The position numbers and the translations under genes are program-made. DNA of 64,000 nt from Saccharicrinis sp. (GTDB taxonomy: Bacteria; Bacteroidota; Bacteroidia; Bacteroidales; Marinilabiliaceae): assembly GCA_024635555.1 (NCBI GenBank), contig JAGXIO010000017.1, positions 1-64,000 on the forward strand. Reading direction: 5' to 3'. Positions 23,004-42,801 of this stretch are shown here, piece after piece (position 1 is the first letter of the stretch; each line of letters starts with the position of its first letter). The notes beneath the pieces are model-generated. The model was not told the origin of the DNA, searched no databases, and saw only the letters and a list, made by a program, of their open reading frames with translations.

Positions 23004-24137
23004 TTGATCAGAAAAATAATAACACCCTCGGTTCAACGTCATATTTCAAATATGCCCGGTTTTAGTACAAAACGAAAACTCCTTGTCATTGAATCGGATG
23101 ACTGGGGTAGTATCCGCATGCCCAGCAATAAAACTTTTGACAATCTTAGCGATTCTGGTATCGATTTGTTATCGGATGAGGGATTCCGGTTTAATAAGTA
23201 CGATACGCTGGCTACTGCCGAAGATTTAACCCTGCTTTTTGAGCTGCTTTCTTCGGTTAAAGATTCTTCCGATCGTGCTGCTGTTATTACACCCATGGCG
23301 GTGATGGCCAATCCTGATTTTCAGAAAATACGCCACAGCCAATTCAATGCCTATTATTACGAGCCTTTTACCGACACCCTTACAAGGCAACCAGGTTGCG
23401 AATCATCTTTTAAACTATGGAAAGAAGGTATCGAGAAAAGGTTATTTGTTCCTCAATTTCATGGTAGAGAACATTTAAACGTAAAGCCTTGGATAAAAGC
23501 CCTGCGGATGGGACATAAAAGCACCCACATCGCTTTTGATAATCAAATGTGGGGTATCTCAACGGCCAACGAGCCGGATATACAATTAGAATTTCAAGCG
23601 GCCTTTGATTTTATCGATCCCAAAGATATTGAATACCAGAAGGAAGTAATTAGAACTGGGCTTGATTTGTTTGAGGAATTATTGGCTTATCGGGCATCTT
23701 TTTTTGTTCCACCGAACGGTCCATTCAGCAAACAATTGGAACCTGAATGTGTGGCGGCCGGAATTAATTATCTATCTACGTCAAAAATTCAGACCGAACC
23801 ATTGGGTAATGGCAAATCCCGAAAGAGATTACACTGGCCTGGTCAAAAGAGCAGCAACGGTTTGACTTACCTTACACGCAATTGTTTTTTTGAGCCCAGC
23901 GACGAAGGTAAGGATTGGGTAGATAGTTGCCTACAAGAAATATCAAGTGCTTTTAAATGGCGAAAGCCAGCCGTAATAAGTTCGCACAGAGTTAATTATA
24001 TTGGTGCTTTACACAAGCATAACCGCGATAATGGATTAAAACAATTGGAAAACTTATTAAGTCAGATTGTAAAAAAATGGCCCGATGTTGAATTTGTAAC
24101 CTCAGAGGAACTAGGGAGGATTATGACGGGGAAATGA
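23004..24137 (+). CDS. Polysaccharide (de)acetylase-like protein, copy 1
   Basis: A 377-residue protein starting at TTG; the paralog at 24.7 kb aligns from the same residue and supports this start. The hallmark VIESDDWGSIRMPS carries an Asp pair (Asp32, Asp33) like the metal site of NodB-type deacetylases. FVPQFHGREH provides two histidines suited to zinc binding, and SHRVNYIGALHKHNRDNGL closes the domain. There is no signal peptide, so it may act in the cytoplasm on a lipid-linked or nucleotide sugar. I recall this family as annotated polysaccharide (de)acetylase in Bacteroidota; the reaction is not proven by the sequence. Confidence 0.7.
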   Translation: MIRKIITPSVQRHISNMPGFSTKRKLLVIESDDWGSIRMPSNKTFDNLSDSGIDLLSDEGFRFNKYDTLATAEDLTLLFELLSSVKDSSDRAAVITPMAVMANPDFQKIRHSQFNAYYYEPFTDTLTRQPGCESSFKLWKEGIEKRLFVPQFHGREHLNVKPWIKALRMGHKSTHIAFDNQMWGISTANEPDIQLEFQAAFDFIDPKDIEYQKEVIRTGLDLFEELLAYRASFFVPPNGPFSKQLEPECVAAGINYLSTSKIQTEPLGNGKSRKRLHWPGQKSSNGLTYLTRNCFFEPSDEGKDWVDSCLQEISSAFKWRKPAVISSHRVNYIGALHKHNRDNGLKQLENLLSQIVKKWPDVEFVTSEELGRIMTGK

Positions 24138-24175
24138 GCGTAAGGCATAACCGCATAGCGGTTTAATGTGAATAG

Positions 24176-24217
24176 CCCCGGGTTTTAACCCGGGGGATAT
24201 GGCGGGATTCAAACCCG
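24176..24217. repeat. Two-hairpin palindromic element, third relative
   Basis: Hairpin ccccgggtt-tt-aacccgggg (24176-24195) is followed by a second, imperfect GC-rich hairpin with CGGG/CCCG arms (24203-24217). Spacing and order match the elements at 16692 and 34398, here without the 20-bp insert. A small hairpin (AACCGC-ATA-GCGGTT) lies just upstream. The rest of the 539-bp spacer holds a gene remnant and a heptamer array. Confidence 0.6.
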
Positions 24218-24343
24218 ACGCACCACAAACCATATTGTATGTTTACGTTAAGTTTGCGTCGGAACGAAGCATAAAAGGTTGAAATTAATATGTTTTGTTT
24301 GTAGGTGTTTAAAAGTTTTACATGATTGTGTATAATACAAAGA

Positions 24344-24401
24344 GTCTGTAAAATGCTTATCTCTATGATTAACAATTCCGATAAATGGTGTCCAAAATAA
24401 A
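24344..24401 (+). pseudogene. 58-bp gene-end remnant, copy A
   Basis: This stretch matches 26129-26186 at 52 of 58 bases. In frame it reads VCKMLISMINNSDKW, then stops. The wording resembles the last helix of the small four-helix-bundle (S23/23S-IVP type) proteins common in Bacteroidota, which is inference from a short match. No start or upstream part of such a gene is visible. Confidence 0.5.
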
Positions 24402-24606
24402 CACAACGTTCAAATGTTGCCCGCTCTTCCCTCTCCCTTTTTTTAAGGCGGGGGAAGTACTGCCGCAAAGCGGTAGGGAAGGGGGTTTTACGCTCCCGAA
24501 GAAATTAAATTTTAGGTTTCGGGATTTGACTACGTCGATTTCCGCATTGCTCCAATTCGCTTTGCTCAATCTCCGTTGTCCGTTTTACGCTGTCCCCTTT
24601 TTTTTC

Positions 24607-24676
24607 TGTTCGCTTTACGCTGTTCGCTGTTCGCTTTACGCTGTCCGCTGCTAACAACCTACATTAAACAACCCTC
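24607..24676 (+). repeat. 7-bp periodic array ending at a start codon
   Basis: Ten heptamers run without interruption to the ATG at 24677: tgttcgc, tttacgc, tgttcgc, tgttcgc, tttacgc, tgtccgc, tgctaac, aacctac, attaaac, aaccctc. Each ends in C. The first six are close copies; the last four are diverged. There is no room for a separate Shine-Dalgarno site. Looser units extend further upstream to about 24570. Confidence 0.8.
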
Positions 24677-25786
24677 ATGCTGTCCAAAATAAAATCAACT
24701 ATATCGCAAAACCTGATTAATATCCCCGGTTTCAGAACTAAGCGCAAAATTGTTGTTATCGAAAGCGACGATTGGGGAAGTATCCGTATGCCGTCGATGG
24801 AGGTGTATAATAAGTTTTTCAACAAAGGATTTGATATCGTTAATTCCGATTATAATCGTTTGGATACGCTGGAAAATAACGATGATATGTCCATGTTATT
24901 AGAGGTGTTGAGCGCACACTCCGATTCTAAGGGTAATGCTGCGGTAATGACGGCCAACGTAGTGGTGGGCAATCCTGACTTTGAGCGTATAAGACAATCC
25001 AATTTTGCTGAATATTCCGTTGAATCCGTTACGGAAACATTAAAAACGTACCCCGGACGAGATAAAGTGCTTGACCTATGGCGCGAGGGATACGAAAAGC
25101 GTTTGTTCCATCCGCAATTTCATGGCAGGGAGCATGTAAATGTTGTTAGATGGATGGATGCATTACGAAAGCGGACACCGGAGATCATGTTCACCTTCGA
25201 TAATAACACTACTTTTTCGGGCGATGGGGACTATAACTTTATGGAAGTGCTCGATTACAATACGCCTGACGATCTACTATTGATGAAAGAAAGCTTAAAG
25301 CACGGACTGGAAATGTTTGAAGAGTTGTTCGGTTTCAGGTCCAAATCATTTATTCCGCCCTGCTACACTTGGGATAGTAATGTGGAAGAGACACTTAATA
25401 ACAATGGAGTTAAATATATGCAAGGTTTGTTTGTTCAGTCAGTTCCCACCGGTACGTTCGAAAATTACACCCATAAATATCACTTTATGGGAAGCCGCAA
25501 CAAACTTGGTCAACGCTATCTGATGCGTAATTGCTTTTTTGAGCCAGCGTTAACAAAAATAAGCGATCCGGTAGGTGAGTGTTTACGACGAATAGATATT
25601 GCTTTTAAATGGAATAAGCCTGCCACAATTGGTTCGCACCGTATTAATTTTATGGGAGCATTGGATTCAAATAACAGAGCTGATAACCTAAAGCTGCTTG
25701 ATAATTTGTTAAAAGGCATCATAAAAAAATGGCCCGATGTGGAATTTATGACTTCAGATCAGTTGGGTGATTTGATGAGCGACTAG
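24677..25786 (+). CDS. Polysaccharide (de)acetylase-like protein, copy 2
   Basis: A 369-residue paralog of the preceding gene, similar along its whole length. It has the same VIESDDWGSIRMPS block, FHPQFHGREHVNVVRWMDAL, CFFEPAL and GSHRINFMGALDSNNRADNL. Differences lie in the region around residues 170-270, which suggests related but distinct substrates or two steps on one sugar. It is bounded on both sides by heptamer arrays in opposite orientation: pyrimidine-rich before the ATG, purine-rich right after the stop. That makes it look like a separable cassette. Function is inferred as for copy 1. Confidence 0.7.
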   Translation: MLSKIKSTISQNLINIPGFRTKRKIVVIESDDWGSIRMPSMEVYNKFFNKGFDIVNSDYNRLDTLENNDDMSMLLEVLSAHSDSKGNAAVMTANVVVGNPDFERIRQSNFAEYSVESVTETLKTYPGRDKVLDLWREGYEKRLFHPQFHGREHVNVVRWMDALRKRTPEIMFTFDNNTTFSGDGDYNFMEVLDYNTPDDLLLMKESLKHGLEMFEELFGFRSKSFIPPCYTWDSNVEETLNNNGVKYMQGLFVQSVPTGTFENYTHKYHFMGSRNKLGQRYLMRNCFFEPALTKISDPVGECLRRIDIAFKWNKPATIGSHRINFMGALDSNNRADNLKLLDNLLKGIIKKWPDVEFMTSDQLGDLMSD

Positions 25787-25877
25787 AAAAGAGTGAACAG
25801 CGGACAGAAAAGAGTGGAAAGAAGAAGGAAGCATAGAAAGGATATAGCGTATAGCGTATAGCGTATAGCGGAAAGAA
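25787..25877 (+). repeat. 7-bp periodic array starting at a stop codon
   Basis: Thirteen heptamers begin right after the TAG of the gene: aaaagag, tgaacag, cggacag, aaaagag, tggaaag, aagaagg, aagcata, gaaagga, four copies of tatagcg, gaaagaa. The sequence is the reverse-complement type of the array before the gene: cagcggacag (25798-25807) is the exact inverse of 24641-24650. Confidence 0.8.
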
Positions 25878-25883
25878 AATATT

Positions 25884-25945
25884 GAACGCCAGCCTGCCGT
25901 CAGGTAGGACGTGCATTGCAACAGTTCAGACCTGTTGGCGTCGCA
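25884..25945. repeat. Palindromic element with CCTGCC-type core
   Basis: An outer inverted repeat ACGCCA/TGGCGT encloses cctgccgtcaggtagg, a shorter relative of the 20-bp palindrome at 16748 and 34416, and a second hairpin AACAG/CTGTT. Nothing coding is visible. Confidence 0.45.
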
Positions 25946-25963
25946 GACCCGACAGCGTCGATA

Positions 25964-26044
25964 GGAGAGAGCGGAAAAAAAGTTAGCGGAAAAAAGTTAG
26001 CGTACAGTAAATAGCGTACAACGTAAAGAAAAAAGCGAAAAGTG
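25964..26044 (+). repeat. Second purine-rich 7-bp-like array
   Basis: Units such as gttagcg, tacagta, aatagcg, tacaacg, taaagaa and aaaagcg continue the purine-rich type of 25787. They include a tandem copy of agcggaaaaaa-gtt with a one-base length difference. The register is less strict than in the neighbouring arrays. Confidence 0.5.
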
Positions 26045-26074
26045 GTCTTCTCCAGCTGTGATGCTTTATGCCTC

Positions 26075-26176
26075 ATGAAAGAACAATCAACTAAACTGTA
26101 TTTGAGTTTAAAGGATGAATCTGAGGAGGTTTGTAAAATACTTATCTCTATGATTAATAATTCAGATAGATGGTGA
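26075..26176 (+). pseudogene. Four-helix-bundle-like gene remnant, copy B
   Basis: An ATG opens a 33-codon frame (MKEQSTKLYLSLKDESEEVC, then KILISMINNSDRW) ending in TGA. The last part is the 58-bp segment shared with 24344-24401. The reading resembles the C-terminal helices of four-helix-bundle (S23/IVP-like) proteins, which are about 120 residues long; the N-terminal three quarters is missing. It is too short to be functional in that family, so remnant is preferred over small gene. Confidence 0.45.
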
Positions 26177-26200
26177 CCAAAATAAAACGGTAGACATACG

Positions 26201-26235
26201 CTGTCCGCTCCCTGCCCCATGCTCCCTGCCCCGCA
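26201..26235 (+). repeat. 7-bp periodic array upstream of capA-like gene
   Basis: Heptamers ctgtccg, ctccctg, ccccatg, ctccctg, ccccgca run toward the TTG start at 26264. The 28 A-rich bases between are too simple to judge for period. It is the pyrimidine-rich orientation, as before the gene at 24677. Confidence 0.6.
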
Positions 26236-26263
26236 CTAAAATAAACACCAAATAAAAAACAAA

Positions 26264-27400
26264 TTGAAAACAACTTCCATAAACATCCTCATCACCGGCG
26301 ACTTTGCCCCTTTAAACCGGGTGGAAGAATTCTGCCTCAACGGTAATTTTAAATCGGTGTTCAACGATTTTTACGAAGTATTCGAAAACAACGATTTAAA
26401 TGTGGTGGATTTGGAATGTCCCTTGACCCATGCAAAAACAACCCGCCCAAAAACCGGTCCGTATCAAAAAGCACATCCCGATACCATTGGGGCTTTGAAA
26501 TATGCCGGAGTATCGCTTGCGGTCATGGCGAATAACCACATTATGGATTACGATAATCAAGGTGTTAAGGACACTTTGGATCTCTGTAAGCAAAATGGAA
26601 TTGCTACGCTTGGTATAGGCTCATCTTCAGGAGAGGCTGCAAAGCCTTTCTCACTTGAAACAAAGGGCAAAAGAATAGGCATTTTAAATTTTGCTGATAA
26701 TGAGTTTCTTTCTACCCCAGATGGTTCGTACACTTGTAATCCCATCGATCCAATAAACGGGCATTACGATATTGTAAAAGCCAAGAAGGAGCACGATTAT
26801 GTGGTTGTGATTATTCATGCCGGAAATGAATTCTATCGTTTACCGTCGCCACGCACAAAACAGCTGTATCGCTTTTTGGCAGATCAAGGAGCAGATGCGG
26901 TTATATCGCATCATACCCATGTATTTTCAGGCTACGAAATATATAAAGGCAAGCCTATTTTTTACGGTCTAGGTAATTTTGTGTACGACTGGCCCGGAAA
27001 AATAAACTCCGATTGGAACAGGGGATATGTGGTCAGGTTAAGCATCTCGGACAAACTGGATTTTGAGATAATACCTTTGAAGCAAGGAAACGAAAAACCC
27101 GGGGTTTTCAAACTGGCCGAAAGTGAGAAAGTCACTTTCGATAAAGATTTAGAGGAGCTAAGCCGAATCATTTCCAACGACGAAGAGTTGGAAGTGGAAT
27201 TTCAAAAGTATTGTCAATCTGTATTTCCGATGTATGACGCTTTTATTGAACCCTTTTTTGGCAGATACATTGTAGCATTACAAAAAAGAGGTTGGTTGCC
27301 AAAACTATTATCCCGACAAAAGAGGCTCTTCCATCTCAACCTTAACCGCTGCCAATCGCACAGAGACGTTTTGTTGCGTTTGCTCAAAAAATATGAGTAA
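26264..27400 (+). CDS. CapA-family metallophosphatase-like protein
   Basis: 378 residues, start TTG. The CapA/PGA_cap fold is seen in order: ITGDFAPLNR (metal-binding Asp), VVDLECPLT, VMANNHIMDYD (Asn-His), VVIIHAGNEF, VISHHTHVFSGYE (His-His-x-His) and IFYGLGNFVYDW. Members take part in poly-gamma-glutamate or other capsule synthesis, probably as phosphatase-like enzymes. There is no signal peptide or membrane anchor here, unlike Bacillus CapA, so a cytoplasmic role in modifying the repeat unit is likely. It lies beside an asparagine synthase and an ATP-grasp protein, which may form an amide-bond module. Confidence 0.82.
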   Translation: MKTTSINILITGDFAPLNRVEEFCLNGNFKSVFNDFYEVFENNDLNVVDLECPLTHAKTTRPKTGPYQKAHPDTIGALKYAGVSLAVMANNHIMDYDNQGVKDTLDLCKQNGIATLGIGSSSGEAAKPFSLETKGKRIGILNFADNEFLSTPDGSYTCNPIDPINGHYDIVKAKKEHDYVVVIIHAGNEFYRLPSPRTKQLYRFLADQGADAVISHHTHVFSGYEIYKGKPIFYGLGNFVYDWPGKINSDWNRGYVVRLSISDKLDFEIIPLKQGNEKPGVFKLAESEKVTFDKDLEELSRIISNDEELEVEFQKYCQSVFPMYDAFIEPFFGRYIVALQKRGWLPKLLSRQKRLFHLNLNRCQSHRDVLLRLLKKYE

Positions 27401-27532
27401 TAGCTTATGGCTAATGGCTATTCTATTATCCATAAACGATAATGATATTGTAATCTAAAGGAATTAAACCGGACAGAGCTTTTTGAAATCAAACCACAAA
27501 CTTCTGAACTTTAAACTTTAAACCCCATTCTC
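27401..27532 (+). repeat. 7-bp arrays after a stop and before a start codon
   Basis: Immediately after the capA-like TAA come tagctta, tggctaa, tggctat (27401-27421), the same type as the array at 42690. Immediately before the ATG at 27533 come aaaccac, aaacttc, tgaactt, taaactt, taaaccc, cattctc (27491-27532), the same type as the array at 36437. The 70 bases between show no feature. Confidence 0.7.
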
Positions 27533-29461
27533 ATGTGTGGAATCACAGGATATATCAACACCAACTCAAAATCAATAAGCGATAGCTCCAGGATTATTTC
27601 GATGCTACAGATTCAGAGGCATCGTGGTCCGGACGATTCGGGTATCAGAGCCTTTAACTTAAAAACGGGACGATCAAAAGCATTTAACAGTCAGGAAGTC
27701 AGTAATATAGAAGATGGTTTAGATGGAGTGCTGGGTTTTAACCGACTGAGCATTCTCGACCTTTCGGCTAACGGACATCAACCCATGGTGAGTCCAAATG
27801 GTAAAGTGATTCTGGCTTTTAATGGCGAAATTTATAATGCTTTCGATTATAAGCAGGAGTTAACAGACTGGGGCTATGTATTTAAGAGTACTTCGGATAC
27901 TGAAGTTGTTTTGGCATTGTATTTAAAATATGGTTTGCAAGGGATGCTAAGCAAGCTCAACGGTATGTTTGCCATTGTTATTGCCGATTTGGATAAGCAG
28001 GAACTTTACGTGGCTCGCGACCGCTTTGGTATTAAACCGATGTATTATGTAACAACTGGAAACACATTTGCTTTTTCCTCCGAATTAAAGTCCTTTAAAT
28101 ATCTGGAGGGTTATTCATTTAGTTTAAACGCATCTAAGTTAGATGAATACTTGCTTTTCAGGAATAATATCAACGATACGCTTTTTGATGGTATCAAATC
28201 CTTAAAGCCTGGACATTTTATTACCTACACGCAAGGAGGAAATCTTAGCATAAAGCAATTTTTTAATGTAAACGATTATAACAGGGAGATCCCTGAAGTA
28301 GTTAGTTTACAGCAAGAGCAACAAAAGCTGGAATCCTATTTAGATAAAAGCGTGCAAAGTCAGCTAATGAGCGATGTAAAGCTGGGCTGTCAGCTGTCGG
28401 GTGGGGTTGATTCTTCGTTGGTAACATGGCTGGCAAACAAACAAAGCAAAAGCGGGAATTTTGAGTCTGTTTCCATTGTGTTTGACGATGAACGTTTTTC
28501 GGAGGAAAAATATATTAACGAAGTAAGAGATGCTTTGGACATTACAGCTCACAAGTTTTTGTTGGATTCGGACTATTATCTCGATCATTTTGAAGATGCC
28601 ACTTGGCATCTGGAAGCTCCTTTAAATCATCCCAATACCATTGGCATTTACATGCTGTCGCAAAGAGCAAAAGAATATGTTACGGTGCTGTTAAGCGGTG
28701 AAGGAGCCGATGAGGTTTTTGGTGGATACGAGAGGTTTTATGATATTAAATATCCTTATGGCGGATTAAACCTATTGCGTCAGATTAAAAATAATATTAA
28801 GCAACCTTCGCAGATATTCGATTATTTTAACGAGGCCAATAGAGCGGTAATGTCAACTGCTTTTATGCAAACTGACTTGGCGCAGGTTCTGAGGCCCCAG
28901 TTTAACAAACAGAAGGCGGCTATGGATCGGAAATCGCTGTATGCCAATTTAACGGGCACACGTTTCGATCGTCAAGTTAAATACGAAATGCTATCGTACT
29001 TACCTGATTTGTTGATACGGCAGGATAAAATGTCCATGGCACATTCAATTGAGAATAGGGTGCCATTTTTAGATAATGAAGTGGTGAACCATTCGTTCAC
29101 TATCCCGGAGAATCATCTGCTCAGTCGTAAAAATGGAAACGGTACCAACACCGAAAAGTATCTTCTTAAACAGATGACGGCTGATGTGTTTGGTCATCAA
29201 TTTGCTTTCCGCGATAAAATGGGATTTGGCATACCGCTGCGCGAATTCTTTTTAAAAGATAAATTTAACCAATACCTGAACGATAAAATATTGCCTGGTG
29301 TAAAAAGCAGAGCGATATTTGATAATAAGACAGTAAACTCTTGGGTGGGTAACATCAAAGGCCTAAAGCCCCGCGAGCTCGAAGCATTGTGGGTAGTCAT
29401 TGCCTTCGAAACCTGGGCCTCTGTATATCTGGACGGAAATTATAACCCACCTCATAAATAG
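27533..29461 (+). CDS. asnB: Asparagine synthase (glutamine-hydrolysing)
   Basis: 642 residues with two domains. The N-terminal class II glutaminase begins MCGITGY with catalytic Cys2, and has RHRGPDDSG and FNGEIYN. The C-terminal synthetase has the PP-loop LSGGVDSSLV and LLSGEGADEVFGGYERF. In polysaccharide loci, such enzymes often amidate a uronic acid or an amino-acid substituent rather than make free asparagine. That role here is inferred from context. A 7-bp periodic array runs into its start codon. Confidence 0.92.
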   Translation: MCGITGYINTNSKSISDSSRIISMLQIQRHRGPDDSGIRAFNLKTGRSKAFNSQEVSNIEDGLDGVLGFNRLSILDLSANGHQPMVSPNGKVILAFNGEIYNAFDYKQELTDWGYVFKSTSDTEVVLALYLKYGLQGMLSKLNGMFAIVIADLDKQELYVARDRFGIKPMYYVTTGNTFAFSSELKSFKYLEGYSFSLNASKLDEYLLFRNNINDTLFDGIKSLKPGHFITYTQGGNLSIKQFFNVNDYNREIPEVVSLQQEQQKLESYLDKSVQSQLMSDVKLGCQLSGGVDSSLVTWLANKQSKSGNFESVSIVFDDERFSEEKYINEVRDALDITAHKFLLDSDYYLDHFEDATWHLEAPLNHPNTIGIYMLSQRAKEYVTVLLSGEGADEVFGGYERFYDIKYPYGGLNLLRQIKNNIKQPSQIFDYFNEANRAVMSTAFMQTDLAQVLRPQFNKQKAAMDRKSLYANLTGTRFDRQVKYEMLSYLPDLLIRQDKMSMAHSIENRVPFLDNEVVNHSFTIPENHLLSRKNGNGTNTEKYLLKQMTADVFGHQFAFRDKMGFGIPLREFFLKDKFNQYLNDKILPGVKSRAIFDNKTVNSWVGNIKGLKPRELEALWVVIAFETWASVYLDGNYNPPHK

Positions 29462-29587
29462 TGGCTATAGTATACGCCAAATAGTTCGTCATGCTCATCT
29501 TTATTCAGCCATACAAAAATGTACTGGTTCGTTTAGAAGCATTAAATAAAAAACAAAATACACCACGTCCATCTCTACGTTATGTCT

Positions 29588-29605
29588 CTCCCCCTTTCGG
29601 GGGAG
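29588..29605. repeat. GC-rich hairpin before the ATP-grasp gene
   Basis: CTCCCCC-TTTC-GGGGGAG is followed by a further G-rich stretch and TTTT. It lies 25 bases before the next ATG. It could be an attenuator or terminator after asnB, or another palindromic element; a similar GC-rich block occurs near 24430-24490. Confidence 0.45.
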
Positions 29606-29630
29606 CCGGAGGGGGCTTTTACTTTTTCCT

Positions 29631-30647
29631 ATGAAAATAGCTATACACAGTGCCAAAGGATCCTTCAGTGATAGATGGATTCCTTATTGCGAAAAAAACA
29701 ATATTGACTTTAAATTGGTAAACTGTTTCGGTACCGATATTATGCAGCAGCTGGAGGATTGCGATGCGCTGATGTGGCATTTTAACCATAAAGGGGCACG
29801 CGAAAGCAAGTTCGCCAAGCAATTGTTGTTTGCTGTTCAGCATACAGGTAAAAAAGTATTCCCCGATTACAATACCGCGTGGCATTTTGACGATAAGGTA
29901 GCGCAAAAATATTTGTTAGAAGGTATTGATGCGCCATTGGCTCCCGCTTACGCTTTTTATACTGAAAAAGAAGCGCTGGAGTGGGCGGCTATCACCGCTT
30001 ATCCCAAAGTGTTTAAACTGCGCAATGGTGCCGGATCGGATAATGTTAAGCTGGTGAAGTCTTTTGATGGAGCCAAAAAATTGATACAAAAATCTTTTGG
30101 TAAGGGTTTTAAACAATATGATGCTTGGGGAAATCTCAAAGAGCGGATTAGGTTATTTAAGGCTGGCAAAACCACTTTCTTCGATGTTACCAAAGGAATT
30201 GCGCGTATATTTTACACAACACAATATGCTCGGGTAACGGGTAAGGAGATGGGCTATGTTTATTTTCAGGAGTTTATACCTCAAAACGATTCCGATATCA
30301 GGGTTTGCGTTGTGGGTGACAAAGCCTTTGCCATAAAACGTATGGTACGCGAAAATGACTTTAGAGCTTCCGGCAGCGGCACCATTCTTTACGACAAAAA
30401 ATATTTCGACGACGATACCATTAAAACGGCTTTTGATATTTCGGAAAAATTAAAGGATCAGTGCATGGCTTACGATTTTGTTTATTTAAACGGCAAGCCT
30501 TTGATAGTTGAAATAAGCTATGGTTTTGCCAAGGAAGGATACGACGATTGTGTGGGATATTGGGACAAAGATATGACTTGGCATCCCGGAAAGTTTAATC
30601 CCTACGGATGGATGGTGGAAGATATTCTCAGGAACGGGTCTGTATAA
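29631..30647 (+). CDS. ATP-grasp domain protein (RimK-like)
   Basis: 338 residues, no signal peptide. The N-terminal part (MKIAIHSAKGSFSDRWIPYC, ALMWHFNHKG) is a pre-ATP-grasp domain. YPKVFKLRNGAGSDNVKLV, the acidic MGYVYFQEFIPQNDSDIRV and PLIVEISYGFAKEGYDDC match the ATP-grasp nucleotide and metal sites. ATP-grasp ligases join a carboxylate to an amine through an acyl phosphate. With the asparagine synthase upstream and the CapA-like gene, it may attach an amino acid to a uronic acid or amino sugar; that is inference. I do not recognise a named family member. Confidence 0.7.
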   Translation: MKIAIHSAKGSFSDRWIPYCEKNNIDFKLVNCFGTDIMQQLEDCDALMWHFNHKGARESKFAKQLLFAVQHTGKKVFPDYNTAWHFDDKVAQKYLLEGIDAPLAPAYAFYTEKEALEWAAITAYPKVFKLRNGAGSDNVKLVKSFDGAKKLIQKSFGKGFKQYDAWGNLKERIRLFKAGKTTFFDVTKGIARIFYTTQYARVTGKEMGYVYFQEFIPQNDSDIRVCVVGDKAFAIKRMVRENDFRASGSGTILYDKKYFDDDTIKTAFDISEKLKDQCMAYDFVYLNGKPLIVEISYGFAKEGYDDCVGYWDKDMTWHPGKFNPYGWMVEDILRNGSV

Positions 30648-30673
30648 AAGTGCTGTAAATCAGACCCGTTCCT
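30630..30673. other. Perfect 13-bp inverted repeat spanning the gene end
   Basis: AGGAACGGGTCTG (30630-30642) is the exact inverse of 30661-30673, with 18 bases between that contain the TAA stop of the ATP-grasp gene. No T-run follows, so it is not a classical terminator. It could act as an RNA-stabilising 3' hairpin. Confidence 0.7.
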
Positions 30674-30777
30674 TAGCGCTATAAATACTTTTAGCTTTCA
30701 GCACCAAAACCACAAACAATTCCATTCCTTAACATCAAAACCACGATTACCCCGCTCCCGAGTTAAATAAAAATTTA

Positions 30778-31875
30778 ATGACAATAGAAAATAAGAAAAT
30801 AAAAATATGTTTGGTGATACATTCACTTCAGGCTGGTGGCATGGAGCGGGTTATGTCGGAGTTGGCATCCTATTTTGCAAATAAAGCTAACACAGAAACA
30901 CACCTGATACTTTACGGTTTAAACAGGGAGATATTTTATAAAATACCCGACAATGTTATCGTGCACAAGCCAAAGTTTAAGTTTGATAACAAAAAGCGAT
31001 GGGTATCTACTCTAAAAACCATTTTATATCTACGTAAAACTATAGCGTGTATTCACCCAAAATCGGTACTTAGTTTTGGCGAACATTGGAATAATCTTGT
31101 TTTACTTTCCATGGTAGGTTTAAAACATTCCGTTTATGTATCCGATAGAAGTCAACCCGACAAGAGCTTGGGTAAAATACAGGATTATCTGCGTAAAAAG
31201 CTTTATCCAAAGGCCAAAGGCATTATAGCCCAGACTCAAAAAGCAAAAGAAATTTTTCAAAAGAGTGTTAAACATCCCAATATTGCTGTTATAGGTAATC
31301 CAATAAGGGAGGTTGGTCAGATTGAACCCAAACCACAAAAGGAAAAAATAGTACTGATGGTTGGTCGGCTTATCCAAAGTAAAAACCAGGATAAGCTGAT
31401 TGAGATTTTTGCTAGGGTAAATGCTCCCGATTGGAAGTTGATGTTAGTGGGCTACGATCATTTAAAACAAAAAAATATGGACAGGCTAAAGACGCTGGCC
31501 AAGGATTTAAAAGTCGGCGATAGGGTTGTTTTTACCGGAAAGCAGGATAATGTAGAGAAATTGTATGGGCAAAGCTCCATCTTCGCATTTACCTCAAGTT
31601 CAGAAGGCTTTCCCAATGTCATTGGCGAGGCCATGTCGGCTGGGCTTCCGGTGGTGGCTTTCGACTGTGTAGCAGGGCCTTCAGATATGATTAGCGATGG
31701 CCAAAACGGATTTCTTATCCCTCTTTTCGATTCTGACGAATTTGAGATTAAGCTTTCCCTATTGATGAAAGATCATGCCCTTCGTGAAAAAATGGGAGCC
31801 AATGCCCTCCAAAGTATTCAGCGATTTTCTAAGGAAAAAATATGTGAAGAGTTTTATCAATTTATCACAAAATAA
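30778..31875 (+). CDS. Family 4 glycosyltransferase (PglA/PglJ-like)
   Basis: 365 residues. KICLVIHSLQAGGMERVMSE is the acceptor-domain loop typical of the PglA/PglJ/AmsD group. VLMVGRLIQSKNQDKLIEIF and SSEGFPNVIGEAMSAGLPVV hold the donor site with EX7E, followed by the group hallmark AGPSDMI. PglA-type enzymes add HexNAc to lipid-linked bacillosamine, which would suit the PglC/D/E/F-like genes in this window; that link is inferred. Confidence 0.87.
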   Translation: MTIENKKIKICLVIHSLQAGGMERVMSELASYFANKANTETHLILYGLNREIFYKIPDNVIVHKPKFKFDNKKRWVSTLKTILYLRKTIACIHPKSVLSFGEHWNNLVLLSMVGLKHSVYVSDRSQPDKSLGKIQDYLRKKLYPKAKGIIAQTQKAKEIFQKSVKHPNIAVIGNPIREVGQIEPKPQKEKIVLMVGRLIQSKNQDKLIEIFARVNAPDWKLMLVGYDHLKQKNMDRLKTLAKDLKVGDRVVFTGKQDNVEKLYGQSSIFAFTSSSEGFPNVIGEAMSAGLPVVAFDCVAGPSDMISDGQNGFLIPLFDSDEFEIKLSLLMKDHALREKMGANALQSIQRFSKEKICEEFYQFITK

Positions 31876-31964
31876 TCATGTCAGTAAGCTATCAGCCTAA
31901 CAATCTAACAACCTTCCCGTCAGAAAATAAATTTCAGGCGACGGGATGTCACTTCGTTCCAATT

Positions 31965-31999
31965 AATCTATAATCTCATAGTCTCAAAATCTTAAAAAA
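31965..31999 (+). repeat. 7-bp periodic array before the epimerase gene
   Basis: Units aatctat, aatctca, tagtctc, aaaatct, taaaaaa end one base before the ATG at 32001. Looser units (agctatc, agcctaa, caatcta, acaacct) lie just after the previous gene's stop. Confidence 0.55.
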
Positions 32000-32000
32000 A

Positions 32001-32894
32001 ATGAAAATACTCATCATAGGCTCAAAAGGATTTATAGGCCAAAATTTGGTTCGTTACTTCCAGAAAAAAAATTACAAAGTTTTTAAAGCGGATGTGGTAG
32101 TAGATTATACCGATACCGATCGTTATTTTTTAATTGATGCCTCCAACTCCGATTACAATACGGTTTTTCATTACGAAAAATACGATTTGTGCATCAATTG
32201 CTCGGGAGCGGCCAGTGTGCCCGATTCTTTGAAGAATCCGATGAGAGATTACTATTTGAATACCGTAAACGTATTTAAAATACTCACAGCCATTAACCAG
32301 TTTCAACCCGAATGCAAATTTATAAACATGGGTAGTGCCGCTGTTTATGGCAATCCGCTGACCTTGCCGGTACTTGAAAGTGCAGAGCGAAACCCTCTTT
32401 CTCCTTATGGATTTCATAAGTTGCAGGCCGAGCAAATATGTGACGAGTTTTACAAGTTTTTTAAACTAAAAACCTGCTCATTACGTATTTTTTCGGTGTA
32501 TGGTAACGGACTGCAAAAACAATTGTTTTGGGATCTGAATCAAAAAGCGTTGTCAGGTACACCGATAGAATTATTTGGAACAGGTGACGAGTCAAGAGAC
32601 TTTATTCATGTGTACGACTTGGCCAGAGCCATTGAATTGGTTGCGCTTAACTCGGAGTTTAAAGCGGATGTTATTAATATTGGCAATGGGCAGGAAGTAA
32701 AAATTAAAGAGGTGGTAGCCGATTTTTTTGCTTTATTTAAAGATGAAGTAGTATATACTTTCTCTGGCACTACCCGGAAAGGCGACCCTTTAAACTGGAA
32801 GGCCGATATTAATAAACTAAAATCGTTTGGTTATGCGCCCACAGTTGATATGAAAGAGGGCTTGAGGCAATATTATGAATGGTTGCAGGAATAA
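32001..32894 (+). CDS. NAD-dependent sugar epimerase/dehydratase (extended SDR)
   Basis: 297 residues. The Rossmann motif is GSKGFIG near the N-terminus. The catalytic set is NMGSAAVYGNP (Ser/Thr) and SPYGFHK (Tyr-x3-Lys), and a GDESRDFIHVYDLARAI stretch lies in the substrate domain. It converts a nucleotide sugar for one of the glycosyltransferases; whether epimerase, dehydratase or 4-reductase cannot be told. It stands alone between two palindromic/array spacers. Confidence 0.85.
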   Translation: MKILIIGSKGFIGQNLVRYFQKKNYKVFKADVVVDYTDTDRYFLIDASNSDYNTVFHYEKYDLCINCSGAASVPDSLKNPMRDYYLNTVNVFKILTAINQFQPECKFINMGSAAVYGNPLTLPVLESAERNPLSPYGFHKLQAEQICDEFYKFFKLKTCSLRIFSVYGNGLQKQLFWDLNQKALSGTPIELFGTGDESRDFIHVYDLARAIELVALNSEFKADVINIGNGQEVKIKEVVADFFALFKDEVVYTFSGTTRKGDPLNWKADINKLKSFGYAPTVDMKEGLRQYYEWLQE

Positions 32895-32898
32895 TCAC

Positions 32899-33040
32899 AT
32901 TGCCGTTGGCTTTAGCCAACGGAAAAAAGACTTTACTTTTGGCTTTAGCCACATTTAGTCTATTTGGTTTAAAATAAAAAATGTGGCTAAAGCCAGTAGC
33001 TGCTGCACATTCATAACCGTTGGTTAAAACCAACGGCAAT
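32899..33040. repeat. 142-bp MITE-like nested inverted-repeat element
   Basis: Terminal inverted repeats of 11 bp (attgccgttgg / ccaacggcaat) bound the element, and each end is itself a hairpin with 9-bp arms (32903-32922 and 33017-33036). Inside, a 16-bp inverted repeat (32940-32955 against 32980-32995, TGGCTTTAGCCACATT) forms a central hairpin. No coding potential. It starts five bases after the epimerase stop. Confidence 0.8.
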
Positions 33041-33108
33041 AGGGGTTAAAACAAACCTATATTTCAAACAAGATGAACTTTTACATTTTTTTAATCACTT
33101 TTTAAACA

Positions 33109-34257
33109 ATGATACCCTTAGATAAAAAAAGACTCAAAATTGGACTTCTGTTCAATTTTCAATCCGTATGGATGGGTGGAATAACCTACATACTTAATCT
33201 TATAAAAACATTTAATTATTTAGATGATGAGGAAAAACCTGAAATTATTCTTTATTACAGTTCTGCTTTAAAAAAGTACATTTCTGATATTGATTATCCG
33301 CATATAACATTTTCGGAATATCCTGCGCATCCGGTGGCCTTAGGTTATATCATGTCGTGGTTAAATCGGAAGAACTTATTTATCGATGATTTAATAGTAC
33401 AAGATAGTTTGGATGCTATTTATCCAGTTAGAGATTGTCCGGTAAAATCCAAAACGAATGCCAAAGTTATCGCGTGGTATGCCGATCTTCAACATAAAGT
33501 ATATCCGGAGTTTTTTACTCGCTCAACACTTTTGCATCGTACACTAAGGCTCAATCTAATGCTGCGAAATGCCACCAACATGGTGGTGTCGAGCCAGGCT
33601 GTGAGAGACGATTTCGACCGTTTTTTCAAGATTCGGAAGAAACTTAGGTTTCATATTTTTCATTTTGTGTCGATAAATGAAGATTTTGAGCAAGCCAATA
33701 TTAAAGAATTAAGGCATACGTATAATTTACCCGAGAAATACTTTATGGTATCCAACCAATTTCATAAACATAAAAACCATAAGGTAATATTATTGGCTCT
33801 GGTAAAATTAAAAGAGAAAGGAATTTACAAGCACATAGCCTTCACGGGTAGATTTCCATCTGCCGCGGACTCACCTTATCTAGCTGAACTTCATCAAATT
33901 ATTAACGACAATAACCTGCACAATCAAATCAGTATGTTGGGTATTATTCCGCGTAATGATCAGATGCAATTGATGAATTATTGCCAAGCTGTTTTACAAC
34001 CCAGTCTTTTTGAGGGATGGAGTACGGTTATAGAGGATGCTAAATCCCTGCAAGTACCGGTGATGGCCAGTAACTTAAAAGTGAATGTGGAGCAATTACA
34101 AGATAAAGGCGAATATTTTGAGCCAGATGATTACAAAACCTTGGCTACTATGCTGGCCAACTTTCCCGATAGAAATAGAGCGAAGTCTATCTATATGCCG
34201 CATGAGCATAGGGTGAAAAGCGCAGCCAAGGAATTATTGAGCATTTTTAGCAGATGA
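33109..34257 (+). CDS. Family 4 glycosyltransferase
   Basis: 382 residues, GT-B fold. The N-terminal loop is FNFQSVWMGGITYILNLIKT. VSNQFHKHKNHKVILLAL and QPSLFEGWSTVIEDAKSLQVPV form the donor site, with an EX7E-type arrangement in which Asp takes the place of the second Glu. Acts in repeat-unit assembly; donor unknown. Flanked by the MITE-like element upstream and a two-hairpin element downstream. Confidence 0.84.
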   Translation: MIPLDKKRLKIGLLFNFQSVWMGGITYILNLIKTFNYLDDEEKPEIILYYSSALKKYISDIDYPHITFSEYPAHPVALGYIMSWLNRKNLFIDDLIVQDSLDAIYPVRDCPVKSKTNAKVIAWYADLQHKVYPEFFTRSTLLHRTLRLNLMLRNATNMVVSSQAVRDDFDRFFKIRKKLRFHIFHFVSINEDFEQANIKELRHTYNLPEKYFMVSNQFHKHKNHKVILLALVKLKEKGIYKHIAFTGRFPSAADSPYLAELHQIINDNNLHNQISMLGIIPRNDQMQLMNYCQAVLQPSLFEGWSTVIEDAKSLQVPVMASNLKVNVEQLQDKGEYFEPDDYKTLATMLANFPDRNRAKSIYMPHEHRVKSAAKELLSIFSR

Positions 34258-34397
34258 GTACAGTACGCAATCCTACTTGAATAAAGTGATATTTTAGAGG
34301 TTCTATTATTTCTATTCATCAGTGAAAATAAATACACCTCCCTAACTTCAATCTACTAACCAACCTTTTAAGGTAGAGTAATTTTGGGAAAATACGC

Positions 34398-34477
34398 ATA
34401 ACTAGCCCCGGGATTCCTGCCCTCCGTCAGGCGGGTATCCCGGGAAACTTTACAGCATGTATATCGGGCTTTAGCCC
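34398..34477. repeat. Two-hairpin element, 20-bp palindrome in hairpin A
   Basis: The left 18 bases match the element at 16693-16710. Hairpin A (CCCCGGGATT...TATCCCGGG) is split by cctgccctccgtcaggcggg (34416-34435), which differs from the 20-mer at 16748 at one position. Hairpin B, gggctttagccc (34466-34477), is intact. Confidence 0.8.
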
Positions 34478-34529
34478 AAATTAATGTGCAAAATCCTATC
34501 TGCCGCTAAAAAATCTAAACTCAAACCAT

Positions 34530-35660
34530 TTGAAAAAAATCACCATCATAAATCAGGATTCGGGCTATTTAATGATCGACATCGCCAATGATTATATCCG
34601 TAAGGGATATGATACTACTTTAATTGCAGGGAGGATTGTGCAAAGAGATATTCCTTTAAATAAGGATGTACACGTAAAAAAAATCGTGCAGTACAACCGA
34701 TCCTCAAACTTCAAACGATTAATAACCTGGTTTGTCGCTACTATTCAAATATGGACGATAGTATTTTTTAAATCTCGCAAATCACATTTACTCATTGTCA
34801 GCAATCCTCCTCTTGCGCCGCTTTTGCCTTTATTATTGCCCAACAAGTATTCGTTGTTGATCTTCGATTTGTTTCCCGACGCACTGTCCGAATATGGTTT
34901 TGTCAAGGATAAATCGACTATTATAAAATTATGGGGGCGAGCCAACAAAAAGGTGTATGCTGGGGCAAATAAAAATTATACCTTGACCAAAGGTATGCGC
35001 AAAGCTATGGGTAATTATACTTCAACAGAAAAAATAGACATCGTACCCTTATGGACTAATAATTCATTTTTGAAACCGATGTCAAAAGATAACAACTCCT
35101 TTATTAAGGAACATGGTTTGGAGGGTAAGTTTGTGGTGCTTTATTCGGGTAATTTTGGTTATGCACATCAGGTTGATTTGATTATTGACCTAGCAGCTAA
35201 AATATACGACCCAAACATTGTGTTTGTTTTGGTGGGTGGAGGACATACCGAAGCAAAACTGAAAAGTAGAATTGATAAAGAAGGTATTTGCAATTGCCTG
35301 ATACTTCCATGGCAAACCGTGGACATGCTACCTTACTCCCTCTCGTCGGCCGATTTGTCGATAGTGAGTTTGAGCGAAAATGCCACGAACCTGGCCATTC
35401 CCAGTAAAGTATTTAATTATATGTCGGTTGGGTCGCCCATATTAGGAATCACGGGTGCCGGTTCCGACTTGGAAAGTTTGATATTGGATTATGAATTAGG
35501 CAAATCATTTACTGCCGGTCAATCAGATCAAATCGTAAATTTCATAAAAGAACTGGCGGGTAATAGTGCCCTCTCTGATTTTTATAGTGCCAATTCTCTT
35601 AAAGCCACAAATAAGCACACCTCTAAAAATGTTGAACTCATAACACAATTCGATGTATAA
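34530..35660 (+). CDS. Family 4 glycosyltransferase
   Basis: 376 residues, start TTG. The pattern ITIINQDSGYLMIDIANDYI, LLIVSNPPLAPLLPLLL and FDLFPDALSEYGF is that of the GT4 enzymes often encoded just before a priming transferase (WbuB/CapM-like). VLYSGNFGYAHQVDLIIDLA and NLAIPSKVFNYMSVGSPIL mark the donor domain. It overlaps the priming-transferase gene by 8 bp, so it probably adds the second sugar. Confidence 0.82.
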   Translation: MKKITIINQDSGYLMIDIANDYIRKGYDTTLIAGRIVQRDIPLNKDVHVKKIVQYNRSSNFKRLITWFVATIQIWTIVFFKSRKSHLLIVSNPPLAPLLPLLLPNKYSLLIFDLFPDALSEYGFVKDKSTIIKLWGRANKKVYAGANKNYTLTKGMRKAMGNYTSTEKIDIVPLWTNNSFLKPMSKDNNSFIKEHGLEGKFVVLYSGNFGYAHQVDLIIDLAAKIYDPNIVFVLVGGGHTEAKLKSRIDKEGICNCLILPWQTVDMLPYSLSSADLSIVSLSENATNLAIPSKVFNYMSVGSPILGITGAGSDLESLILDYELGKSFTAGQSDQIVNFIKELAGNSALSDFYSANSLKATNKHTSKNVELITQFDV

Positions 35661-36243
35661 AAAATTCTTTAAACAGGTCATAGATTTTTTCCTGGCTTTA
35701 ATTGCTGCAATCCTTTTAATGCCGATCTTTATAGTTGTTTTCATCGCCATAAAACTCGAATCAAAGGGTCCAGCCGTCTTTCACCAAGCACGTTTGGGTA
35801 AAAACGGAAAGATATTTACCGTGTTAAAATTTCGTTCTATGGTGGCCGATCAGAGCCAAATAAAGAAAAGCACTACGGTTTACGAAAACGATCCCAGAAT
35901 AACCCGGATAGGTGCTTTTATTCGAAAAACCAGTATTGACGAATTGCCACAGGTGTTTAATATTATAAAGGGCGAGATGAGTTTTATAGGGCCACGTCCG
36001 CCGGTGCCTCATTTTCCGAAAAAATATGACCAGTACAACGATTTTGAAAAACAACGATTTGATGTGAAGCCAGGAATCAGTGGTCTGGCACAAATCCGCT
36101 GCCGCGAAATTCACGATTGGAATATCAACATTCCCATCGACGTGGAATATGTAAACAACTATTCTTTCGTCTATGATGTTAAATTGTTTTTAGCCTCTTT
36201 TATGACTTTTTTTAAACACGATAATATTTATACAAAAGGGTGA
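35653..36243 (+). CDS. Undecaprenyl-phosphate sugar-phosphate transferase (PglC-like)
   Basis: 196 residues, the length of the small PglC-type enzymes without the extra membrane domain of WcaJ/WbaP. One N-terminal hydrophobic stretch (FFLALIAAILLMPIFIVVFIA) is followed by the catalytic core: RLGKNGKIFTVLKFRSM, TRIGAFIRKTSIDELPQ, GEMSFIGPRPP and KPGISGLAQI. It starts repeat-unit assembly by placing a sugar phosphate on undecaprenyl phosphate. With PglD-, PglE- and PglF-like genes in the window, UDP-diacetylbacillosamine or a relative is the likely donor; this is inference. Confidence 0.9.
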   Translation: MYKKFFKQVIDFFLALIAAILLMPIFIVVFIAIKLESKGPAVFHQARLGKNGKIFTVLKFRSMVADQSQIKKSTTVYENDPRITRIGAFIRKTSIDELPQVFNIIKGEMSFIGPRPPVPHFPKKYDQYNDFEKQRFDVKPGISGLAQIRCREIHDWNINIPIDVEYVNNYSFVYDVKLFLASFMTFFKHDNIYTKG

Positions 36244-36365
36244 AACGGTATTCAGTGAACAGTTGGAGTGAAACGACATCCAGTCACCTTAATTTCATTT
36301 ATTCTTTGACGGGAAAGCAGTAATCAGTTAACAATATAATTAGTGGGCATTTAAGCATTCCAATA

Positions 36366-36421
36366 ATCATCACATCATCACATCATCACATCACCACATT
36401 AGCACATCATCACATCACCTG
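36366..36421 (+). repeat. 8-bp periodic array
   Basis: Seven octamers: atcatcac three times, atcaccac, attagcac, atcatcac, atcacctg. It stands 15 bases before a 7-bp array in the same spacer. The units are too short for CRISPR. Confidence 0.8.
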
Positions 36422-36436
36422 AAATTTAATTAGACG

Positions 36437-36499
36437 GGAACTCAAAACTCGGAACTCTAAACTTTTAACCCTAAACTCTGAACCCAAAACACTAAAAGC
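36437..36499 (+). repeat. 7-bp periodic array ending at a start codon
   Basis: Nine heptamers run up to the ATG at 36500: ggaactc, aaaactc, ggaactc, taaactt, ttaaccc, taaactc, tgaaccc, aaaacac, taaaagc. Positions 3-4 are almost always AA and position 5 is mostly C. No separate ribosome-binding site fits between array and start. Confidence 0.85.
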
Positions 36500-37195
36500 A
36501 TGAACAAAACTATCGCCATACATCAACCCAATTATTTGCCATGGCTGGGTTATTTTTATAAAATTTCTCAATCCGATGTCTTTGTATTTCTTGACGATGT
36601 GCAGTTTTCGAACCAAGGGATGCACAATTACACCTATCTAAAAACGTCCAACGGTCCTTATCGCCTAAAATATCCGGTCAATCAAAAATTTGGTGACGAT
36701 ATAAAGCAGGTATCATCAAAAGATGAAATCAATTGGAAGAAAAAGCATCTGGATACCATTGCCTCAAATTATAAAAAAGCGCCACATTTTGAAGAAGTGT
36801 TTGAGGATTACAAGCATATTTTAAATCAGGAATACCAAGATATTGTAGATCTTAACACTGCTTTTATCCTTTTTTATGCCAATAAAATGGGCATCAACAC
36901 ACAGTTCGTGCGTTCTTCCGAGCTAAATATAGAATCGAACCGTACCGAAAAAATTATAGATATTTGTAAAGCCTTGGGCGGGAACGTATATTACTCCGGA
37001 ACTGGCGCTAAAGCCTACCAAACAAATGAGGAATATGATTCACAGGGAATCGAGCTTCGGTATTCAGTTTTTAAACCAGTGGAATATCCCCAACTGTGGA
37101 ACGAGTTTCAATCAAATGTTTCGGCATTAGACTATTTTATGAACTGCGGATACGATTTTAGTAGGATACTAAAAGAACAAAAAAACGGTGTATAA
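36500..37195 (+). CDS. WbqC-family protein
   Basis: 231 residues. The family signature is clear: IAIHQPNYLPWLGYFYKI near the start, then FVFLDDVQFSNQG, and RSSELNIESNRTEKIIDICK in the second half. WbqC proteins occur in O-antigen loci and are thought to act on amino sugars; the reaction is not established to my knowledge. The stop overlaps the next start (TAATG), so it is coupled to the PLP-type protein that follows. Confidence 0.85.
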   Translation: MNKTIAIHQPNYLPWLGYFYKISQSDVFVFLDDVQFSNQGMHNYTYLKTSNGPYRLKYPVNQKFGDDIKQVSSKDEINWKKKHLDTIASNYKKAPHFEEVFEDYKHILNQEYQDIVDLNTAFILFYANKMGINTQFVRSSELNIESNRTEKIIDICKALGGNVYYSGTGAKAYQTNEEYDSQGIELRYSVFKPVEYPQLWNEFQSNVSALDYFMNCGYDFSRILKEQKNGV

Positions 37196-38169: not shown

Positions 38170-38283
38170 ATTGCGTAATTATTTGAATAAAAAAGAAAAT
38201 AAAAGATGAGTCTATTTGGCTAATGCCTATGGCAGGAGTATTTTTACTCATCATAAAAATGCTTGAAAATAAATGAAGGCAGA

Positions 38284-39423: not shown

Positions 39424-39437
39424 TAATTTTTTTAAAA

Positions 39438-40529: not shown

Positions 40530-40595
40530 CCAGCAACAAACTATTAAGAATTTGAATTGGCCTCGGTCATGATTATTAAATAAATAAAATTTTCC

Positions 40596-41267: not shown

Positions 41268-41396
41268 GTTGGTGTAAAAAATAAAATTACAAACAAATAT
41301 TTAACCGATTGCAATACGAAAAACATTATATTCGGTATTAGAAGTCTCATTTAAAACGACTCAATAATTCAGTTATTAATCTAAAAACTTACTACC

Positions 41397-41621: not shown

Positions 41622-41630
41622 CCTATAAAC

Positions 41631-42780: not shown

Positions 42781-42801
42781 TCGAGATAAACCAACAAACC
42801 A

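Follow-up and report, generated by a model that had tools for sequence, protein, structure and literature searches.

Heptamer arrays beside genes of a Saccharicrinis genome as probable arms of small intercistronic elements related to rRNA intervening sequences

Tandem repeats with a unit of 7 nt are familiar in bacteria as long simple sequence repeats and as the short tandemly repeated repetitive (STRR) heptamers of cyanobacteria, which are intergenic, consist of near-identical units and arise by slippage; to our knowledge, neither a polarity rule nor a partner arm is known for them. Repetitive extragenic palindromic (REP) and REPIN elements, in turn, are small dispersed extragenic hairpins. 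Here we analyzed the degenerate heptamer arrays of a 64,000-nt stretch of Saccharicrinis sp. (contig JAGXIO010000017.1, C218:1-64000 in our numbering; hereafter the window), which belongs to a genome of 5.33 Mb in 259 contigs. We propose that small intercistronic elements are probably the source of these arrays, which would be their right-hand arms. Where such an element retains its single small open reading frame (ORF), of the PF05635 or PF13366 family, the ORF lies between inverted 7- or 8-bp arrays; in this genome, the ORF has probably been lost from most copies. The elements are probably mobile and would be kin of the intervening sequences (IVSs) of rRNA.

Two systems in print come close to these arrays, contrary to the original prediction that no such element had been described. 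The first is the rRNA IVS, in which, according to PMC4990558, heptamers (GACAGAT) lie directly before the S23p ORF in a strain-dependent copy number, and for which the same source reports excision by RNase III. The elements described here resemble the 23S rRNA IVSs of Coxiella and Leptospira in that the protein of the PF05635-bearing copies belongs, by name and by model, to the same family, in having inverted repeats, and in the heptamers found before the IVS ORF. The inverted repeats are stem-capable in the ORF-bearing copies and weak in the array gaps without an ORF. In contrast to the IVSs, our elements lie between protein-coding genes, none of the examined copies being in a 23S rRNA helix; both of their arms are heptad or octad arrays, many copies are ORF-less, and the ORF-bearing copies carry PF05635 in some cases and PF13366 in others. 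The second system is formed by the TAACTGA heptamers, which adjoin start codons, also in Bacteroidetes and Cyanobacteria (MacGregor 2015, PMC4679880). A single fixed unit is followed in that work, with translational control as the proposed role, and its text contains none of the terms four helix, S23 and intervening sequence. The units in the window differ from it, since they are of the AACTYTR, CTGTTCG, TGGCTGA and ATCATCAC types and not exact TAACTGA repeats. A rule of paired arms and a tie of PF05635 and PF13366 to paired arrays between operon genes were not found in literature searches whose coverage excluded most subscription papers, nor in the examined text of PMC4679880, PMC4990558, PMC8934634, PMC5524665 and PMC8700078.

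Placement and polarity of the arrays

We examined 992 kb of the window's genome, in which 27 loci were not selected for arrays; the contigs behind the array and polarity counts were partly picked for AACTYTR matches, and array density is therefore inflated in them. In the unselected loci, 57 kb of intergenic DNA contained 5 segments with lag-7 periodicity, a density of 8.7 per 100 kb that compares with 0.3 per 100 kb after Markov shuffling, and 310 kb of coding DNA contained 1. The intergenic signal thus exceeds that of matched random sequence, as the original prediction implied. In the same loci, lags 14 and 21 yielded 5 and 4 segments, respectively, and lags 5, 6, 9, 10 and 13 none. The partly array-selected loci gave 30 segments at lag 7, 16 at lag 15, 7 at lag 23, 3 each at lags 8 and 16, and only 1 at lag 22. 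Heptads thus dominate, and the raised lags (8, 15, 16 and 23) indicate that some arrays mix 7 and 8; together with an 8-bp array in the window (36366-36417), these lags contradict the strict 7-base spacing first proposed. The templated copying suggested at the same time remains plausible as a copying of several units at once, because periods 14 and 21 often score at least as high as period 7.

These periods bear on a neutral explanation, according to which simple sequence grows by slippage with a preferred 7-nt step in any non-coding DNA, genes are intolerant of it, and the PF05635 ORFs simply happen to lie where gaps abound in such DNA. It agrees with the observed periods, which are multiples of 7 or, in some cases, sums of 7 and 8, and duplication of several units is visible. 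The polarity of the arrays, on the other hand, is left unexplained by slippage. It was scored by RGH versus DCY triplets read outward from the gene, and AG-type units pointed outward in 49 of the 53 scorable arrays within 30 nt of a gene end (23/23 at starts and 26/30 at stops). Gaps without arrays show a weaker polarity in the same direction (397 of 670 flanks, 59%), and the 49/53 exceeds this background with p = 1e-7. Therefore, whatever the strands of the genes, a gap tends to be AG-type at its left edge and CT-type at its right edge, as an inverted pair would be. Stop codons within the units were considered as the cause of the polarity and rejected, since the consensus units GGAGCTT and CAGTGTT obey the rule and contain no stop codon. 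The forward (CT-type) orientation of all 23 arrays within 30 nt of a start is shared with TAACTGA: in PMC4679880, the Maribeggiatoa and Flexibacter repeats are mostly forward before starts, and a single Flexibacter set immediately downstream of a stop is reversed, in agreement with the polarity observed here.

The arrays are not equally common far from genes, 37 of 72 lying within 6 nt of a gene end, where uniform placement within the gaps gives 9.8 and a maximum of 19 in 2000 runs. Because stop codons account for 26 of these 37 and start codons for the other 11, the array is not a start-codon feature; the emphasis that was first placed on the start codon does not stand, the arrays adjacent to stops being at least as common and of inverted polarity. 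In arrays that follow a stop, the stop codon is often in register with the units, as judged by eye. We also evaluated a cis-regulatory or translation-initiation function, in which the heptads before a start would bind an RNA-binding protein or aid S1-like ribosome loading. Arrays do adjoin starts, the CT-type leaders are G-poor, and such a function was proposed for the TAACTGA repeats (PMC4679880). However, besides the predominance of stops over starts (26 vs 11 within 6 nt), the units vary by locus, and one junction, described below, holds an element in certain relatives but none in others. This makes a regulatory origin of the arrays very unlikely.

Array-gene-array cassettes were tried and discarded as a description of these loci: only 2 genes have both flanks periodic, and their flanks match no better (11.0 vs 10.2). 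Two long intergenic 21-bp arrays (L053:2558-2804 and L073:18887-19061) are unlike the heptad families. A run of genes, some of them efflux-like, in L061 (C38:1-20000) has heptad arrays of up to 254 bp in four gaps; some of its units are TTTAGGG, which we take to resemble plant telomere repeats.

Paired arms around small ORFs at operon junctions

A small ORF in one array-rich stretch corresponds to a four helix bundle protein (NCBIfam TIGR02436), and a family search of the genome gave five matches to PF05635, the rRNA intervening-sequence protein. All five ORFs are flanked left and right by array-type units; neither this inverted partner arm nor a link to a protein family was part of the original prediction. 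In L088, L089 and L090, the arrays of both flanks were called by the detector. It called one side in L087, where the other was recognized by eye in the flank, and one side in L091, where the other array sits inside the downstream coding frame. The arm units are AGTATCAAGATATGAG and CTTGATACTTGATACTT in L088 and TTTTCAGTC and GACTGCAG in L090, and the arms of L091 consist of octads, TGATGTGC and its complement, which resemble the window array at 36366-36417. The downstream gene of L091, from 1842, carries its octad array within the coding frame, between the start and the rest of an efflux-type-looking protein. Two solved relatives (2gsc and 2rld) have five chains each, and a pentameric ring is reported for the Xanthomonas protein in PMC4990558.

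With a profile of 15 four-helix-bundle proteins, we collected loci from named genomes and kept the best 80 of 587 confirmed; 79 were scored for arms, one being lost to a short flank, and 75 have a frame of 300-420 nt. The locus titles are mostly Bacteroidota, others being labelled, for example, Limnohabitans, Oscillospiraceae, Clostridia, Nitrospirae and Methanophagales. Lags 7, 14, 21, 8 and 16 were enriched in both flanks of the 79 loci. When the left flank was compared with the reverse complement of its own right flank, the match was 17.3, whereas permuted partners gave 10.0 (sd 0.32, maximum 11.5 of 5000), and the own partner was the best match in 25 of the 79 loci. Among the 75 full-length ORFs, the left flank was periodic in 49, the right in 46, both in 34 and at least one in 61. 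The flanks of other genes in the same loci carried arrays in 63 of 260 cases; with a stricter cut, the comparison was 77 of 150 ORF flanks against 44 of 260 (p = 4e-13). The polarity of the periodic arms was 42:5 on the left and 34:6 on the right. The predicted RNA duplex was likewise more stable between own arms than between swapped arms (-35.7 vs -24.2 kcal/mol), and in the predicted fold of arm, ORF and arm, the fraction of left-arm bases paired with the right arm was 0.268, against 0.119 with a swapped arm.

Viral contigs, previously unused, provided 22 further loci with 17 distinct flanks, a few of them near-copies, and a match of 18.2 vs 9.2 (sd 0.88); the own partner was the best in 12 of 17. 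The ORFs identified within arms belong to PF05635 and to PF13366. The latter, together with TIGR04256, corresponds to GxxExxY, of the PD-(D/E)XK nuclease superfamily. A search for GxxExxY in viral contigs gave 32 pattern matches and no confirmed relative, and on plasmids it gave 8 records, 4 of which were examined; paired arms were seen by eye in 2 of these 4 (L323 and L324).

In the chromosomal loci, the ORF is co-directional with its upstream neighbour in 71 of 73 cases and with its downstream neighbour in 67 of 71, the median gaps to the neighbours being 59 and 52 nt in the 65 loci that have both. The ORF thus sits between operon partners and fills the gap from stop to start. Naming the neighbours from their end sequences and not by search, we found 16 loci at fadJ/fadI, 13 at thiolase/acyl-CoA dehydrogenase, 6 at panB/rluA, 4 at mutA/mutB, 3 at sdhA/sdhB, 2 at atpD/atpC and 31 at others. 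A four helix bundle protein is also placed between the genes for guanylate kinase and nicotinic acid mononucleotide adenylyltransferase in a table of PMC5524665. On a quick tree of the ORFs, in which 33 of 72 inner branches have support below 80, the site labels cluster overall (32 changes vs 45 when shuffled), but the fadJ/fadI label does not (14 changes vs 14.6). Since fadJ/fadI and thiolase/acyl-CoA dehydrogenase each require at least 4 changes on well-supported branches, both junctions were likely entered repeatedly.

The mutA/mutB junction was located in relatives by a search with the downstream mutase protein, and 20 stretches, mostly without a previously known four-helix-bundle ORF, were picked to span short and long gaps. 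We observed a GxxExxY ORF in 9 of these gaps, a truncated GxxExxY in 2, a four-helix-bundle ORF in 3, arms only in 2 and an empty gap, of 7 to 19 nt, in 4; the states of G006, G017 and G028 were assigned by eye. The GxxExxY ORF is split in two pieces in G013, shifted near its end in G029, and truncated in G006 and G017. Nine more mutA/mutB copies with a four-helix-bundle ORF come from loci selected for that ORF. At a low threshold, the best lag was 8 in 14 of 18 GxxExxY arms, whereas in the four-helix-bundle arms it was 7 in 14 of 22 and 8 in 6 of 22. In G011, a congener of G029, the ORF-less gap still has the G029 arms, and the other ORF-less case, G003, comes from the same genus as the window's genome; these two cases are direct evidence that bare arms can descend from ORF-bearing copies.

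Slippage alone would leave unexplained the matched inverted arms around the ORFs, the excess of arrays at the ORFs over other genes of the same loci, and the arms specific to the type of ORF at one junction. Direct as well as inverted similarity inside the gaps would agree with it. Nevertheless, the polarity and the matching of the arms speak against slippage as the whole account, and we regard neutral growth as an unlikely origin of the arrays.

The arrays of the window and the evidence from its genome

In the window, the lag-7 identity and best segment of each array were compared with those of Markov-shuffled sequence (1000 shuffles of the entire gap and 2000 of the stretch), with genes called as the longest frame with first ATG and without a trained gene finder. 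The three arrays named in the original prediction are not random, strongly so in two cases: 24607-24676 has a lag-7 identity of 38/63, which zero shuffles reach, and 36437-36499 has 36/56 (p = 0.000 for the gap and 0.001 for the stretch). The support for 27491-27532 is moderate (21/35, p = 0.002 and 0.0075). Two looser arrays were not convincing, neither before 26264 (p = 0.031 and 0.058) nor before 32001 (p = 0.126 and 0.139). The claim that the arrays reach the ATG without a gap applies only to 36437, which stops 3 nt short of it; the strong part ends 26 nt before the ATG in the first array and 9 nt in the second, and the final 14 positions of the three contain 5, 8 and 8 lag-7 matches, respectively. 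Additional arrays were found, of AG type at 25843-25870, 27398-27420 and 42690-42778, and of 8 bp at 36366-36417. The features are as follows (TRF, Tandem Repeats Finder):

24572-24650, plus strand: CT-type (right-hand) array of units CTGTTCG/CTTTACG before the gene at 24677 (repeat finder, detector and shuffles)
25787-25870, plus strand: AG-type (left-hand) units 3' of the stop of 24677-25786, the last four being perfect TATAGCG (TRF and detector for 25843-25870, the remainder by eye)
26199-26232, plus strand: CT-type units CGCTGTC, CGCTCCC and TGCCCCA ahead of the gene at 26264, which has a PGA_cap domain; unconvincing alone (by eye; 26201-26263, p 0.03-0.06)
27398-27420, plus strand: AG-type units TAATGGC across and past the stop of 26264-27400 (TRF and sequence)
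27498-27523, plus strand: CT-type array AACTTTA before asnB at 27533 (TRF; 27491-27532, p 0.002-0.0075)
36250-36331, plus strand: AG-type units CAGTGAA and CAGTTGG, with GCAGTAATCAGTTAAC, flanking a hairpin core in reverse orientation, 3' of the stop of 35653-36243 (by eye; below the detector length)
36366-36417, plus strand: 8-bp array ATCATCAC, near the L091 octads (TGATGTGC and complement) that surround a four-helix-bundle ORF (TRF and detector)
36437-36496, plus strand: CT-type array AACTCTA, 3 nt before wbqC at 36500 (TRF, detector and shuffles)
42690-42778, plus strand: AG-type array TGGCTGA from the stop of 41631-42689, the stop TAG being in register with the units by eye (TRF and detector)

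The genes that follow the three named arrays had been described as unrelated. AsnB and WbqC were confirmed by family models, but the (de)acetylase-like assignment at 24677 was not, this gene having zero matches among the Pfam and NCBIfam models. The proteins beside the window arrays match PGA_cap, asparagine synthase, WbqC, sugar transferase and epimerase, and the setting therefore resembles a surface-polysaccharide cluster; arrays at other places of the genome also border housekeeping genes, as read from the protein beginnings. An Rfam scan of 24001-44000 returned two matches at E <= 1, each below its gathering score. One weak match, to Acido-Lenti-1 (42830-42883, minus strand; 27.6 bits, gathering 37, E 0.01), lies shortly past the 42690 array. 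At the beginning of the window (1-697), a large ORF contains a 264-bp repeat of 2.6 copies with 85% matches.

A dispersed hairpin core, CCCG(T/C)C followed by an AT-rich loop and G(A/G)CGGGAT, and often then by GTCGCTTCGCTCC, lies within heptad arrays at 24495-24525, 31916-31947 and 36265-36313 of the window (the last by eye) and at many loci of this genome. By eye, the stem letters track the array family, CCCGTC occurring with ACTG units and CCCGCC with TCT and AACT units. The presence of this core inside many arrays would agree with REP-type elements moved by RAYT (Y1 transposase) genes, the arrays being their flanks, and 10 Y1_Tnp matches were found in the genome, including two at a single place. 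However, 0 of the 10 Y1_Tnp loci has a detected array or hairpin core, and the 43 strand-wise core hits, many of which are one core counted on both strands, compare with 72 arrays. Unlike REP and REPIN elements, the arrays have no RAYT link here and the arms are tandem arrays; an origin of this kind appears extremely unlikely.

A broken GxxExxY remnant is present in the window's genome beside CGCAAAG-type units. Its 61 array gaps and the 123 four-helix-bundle loci have 1 junction in common (L041 and L108), at which the window's genome retains the left-hand array and no ORF. Among other genomes, we sampled 8 of 10 PF05635-free ones and, out of 51 PF05635-bearing ones, 8 relatives and the window's genome, G002 being unreadable. 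The intergenic DNA of the 8 PF05635-free genomes (65 kb) contained 0 lag-7 arrays and that of the 8 readable genomes with PF05635 (118 kb) contained 17 (Poisson 9e-5), a contrast in favour of the proposed elements.

Several observations weigh against the idea that the arrays are arms of such elements, and the window itself is its weakest link. Whole-genome searches gave no PF05635 or PF13366 match on the window's contig, so that none of the five PF05635 ORFs of the genome is there, and neither an ORF of these families nor a remnant was seen in the window. In this genome, the arms of one array gap match hardly better than those of different gaps (9.55 vs 8.92, z = 1.2, not significant; z = 3.1 for minus-strand pairs and 0.0 for plus-strand pairs), which is expected from decay and equally from independent insertions, and the direct similarity of the gap sides is also raised (z = 4.8). 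Nevertheless, among the 15 gaps in which both arms are periodic, 6 show a good match, whereas 18% of pairs drawn from different loci do so. Co-directional gene pairs are not significantly over-represented around array gaps here (47/61 vs 332/476, p = 0.30), and the polarity is lost beyond 30 nt from a gene end (8/16). At the database ORFs, direct similarity is raised too, less than the inverted one (12.0 vs 9.3), and 14 of the 75 ORFs have no detectable array on either side. In the viral loci (L301-L322), unlike the chromosomes, the ORF mostly has an antisense orientation relative to its neighbours, in 11 of 15 cases for the upstream one and 10 of 13 for the downstream one. The contrast between genomes is a small one in which kinship is a confounder: G060 alone contributes 9 of the 17 arrays, four of the eight readable bearers (G007, G019, G033 and G034) have none, and G018 and G042 of the PF05635-free group carry PF13366. 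Finally, a Microcystis sample with 6 TAACTGA sets forward and 8 reversed relative to the start (PMC4679880) is not what the polarity rule, if simply extended, would predict.

A proposed mechanism and its meaning

Taking these points together with the evidence above, we still consider the proposed elements the probable source of the arrays. An ORF-bearing element fills the gap from the stop codon of one gene to the start codon of the next, with units mostly of AG type when reading into the gap from either gene, and with arms that match within a copy and differ between copies. Pairing of the two arms is predicted in the transcript, giving a stem whose loop contains the ORF, and this stem may be cut by RNase III, as in the rRNA IVSs with the same protein; the cutting is proposed by analogy with the rRNA case. 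The element could be tolerated because cutting between cistrons would harm neither neighbouring protein, and it probably moves from one junction to another. Once the ORF is lost, as has probably happened in most copies of the window's genome, the arms would stay, diverge and change length by slippage, leaving degenerate arrays beside stop and start codons.

A broader proposal is possible, and we advance it tentatively. Widespread homing-like intercistronic elements, cousins of the rRNA IVSs, may colonise the stop-start gaps of conserved operons with interchangeable cargo, either S23p or a protein of the PD-(D/E)XK nuclease fold, and their heptad arms may be rewritten together and so stay complementary. 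Their ORF-less remains could then be the source of most degenerate heptamer arrays of Bacteroidota, and perhaps of TAACTGA-type repeats elsewhere. That the arms are alike within a copy and different between copies raises the question of whether selection acts on an RNA stem or one arm is copied from the other. If the proposal is true, the abundant four-helix-bundle S23p and GxxExxY families, whose role is unassigned, would become the cargo of one class of elements, the degenerate heptamer arrays noted so far without a cause would be explained, and intervening sequences would interrupt mRNAs between cistrons.

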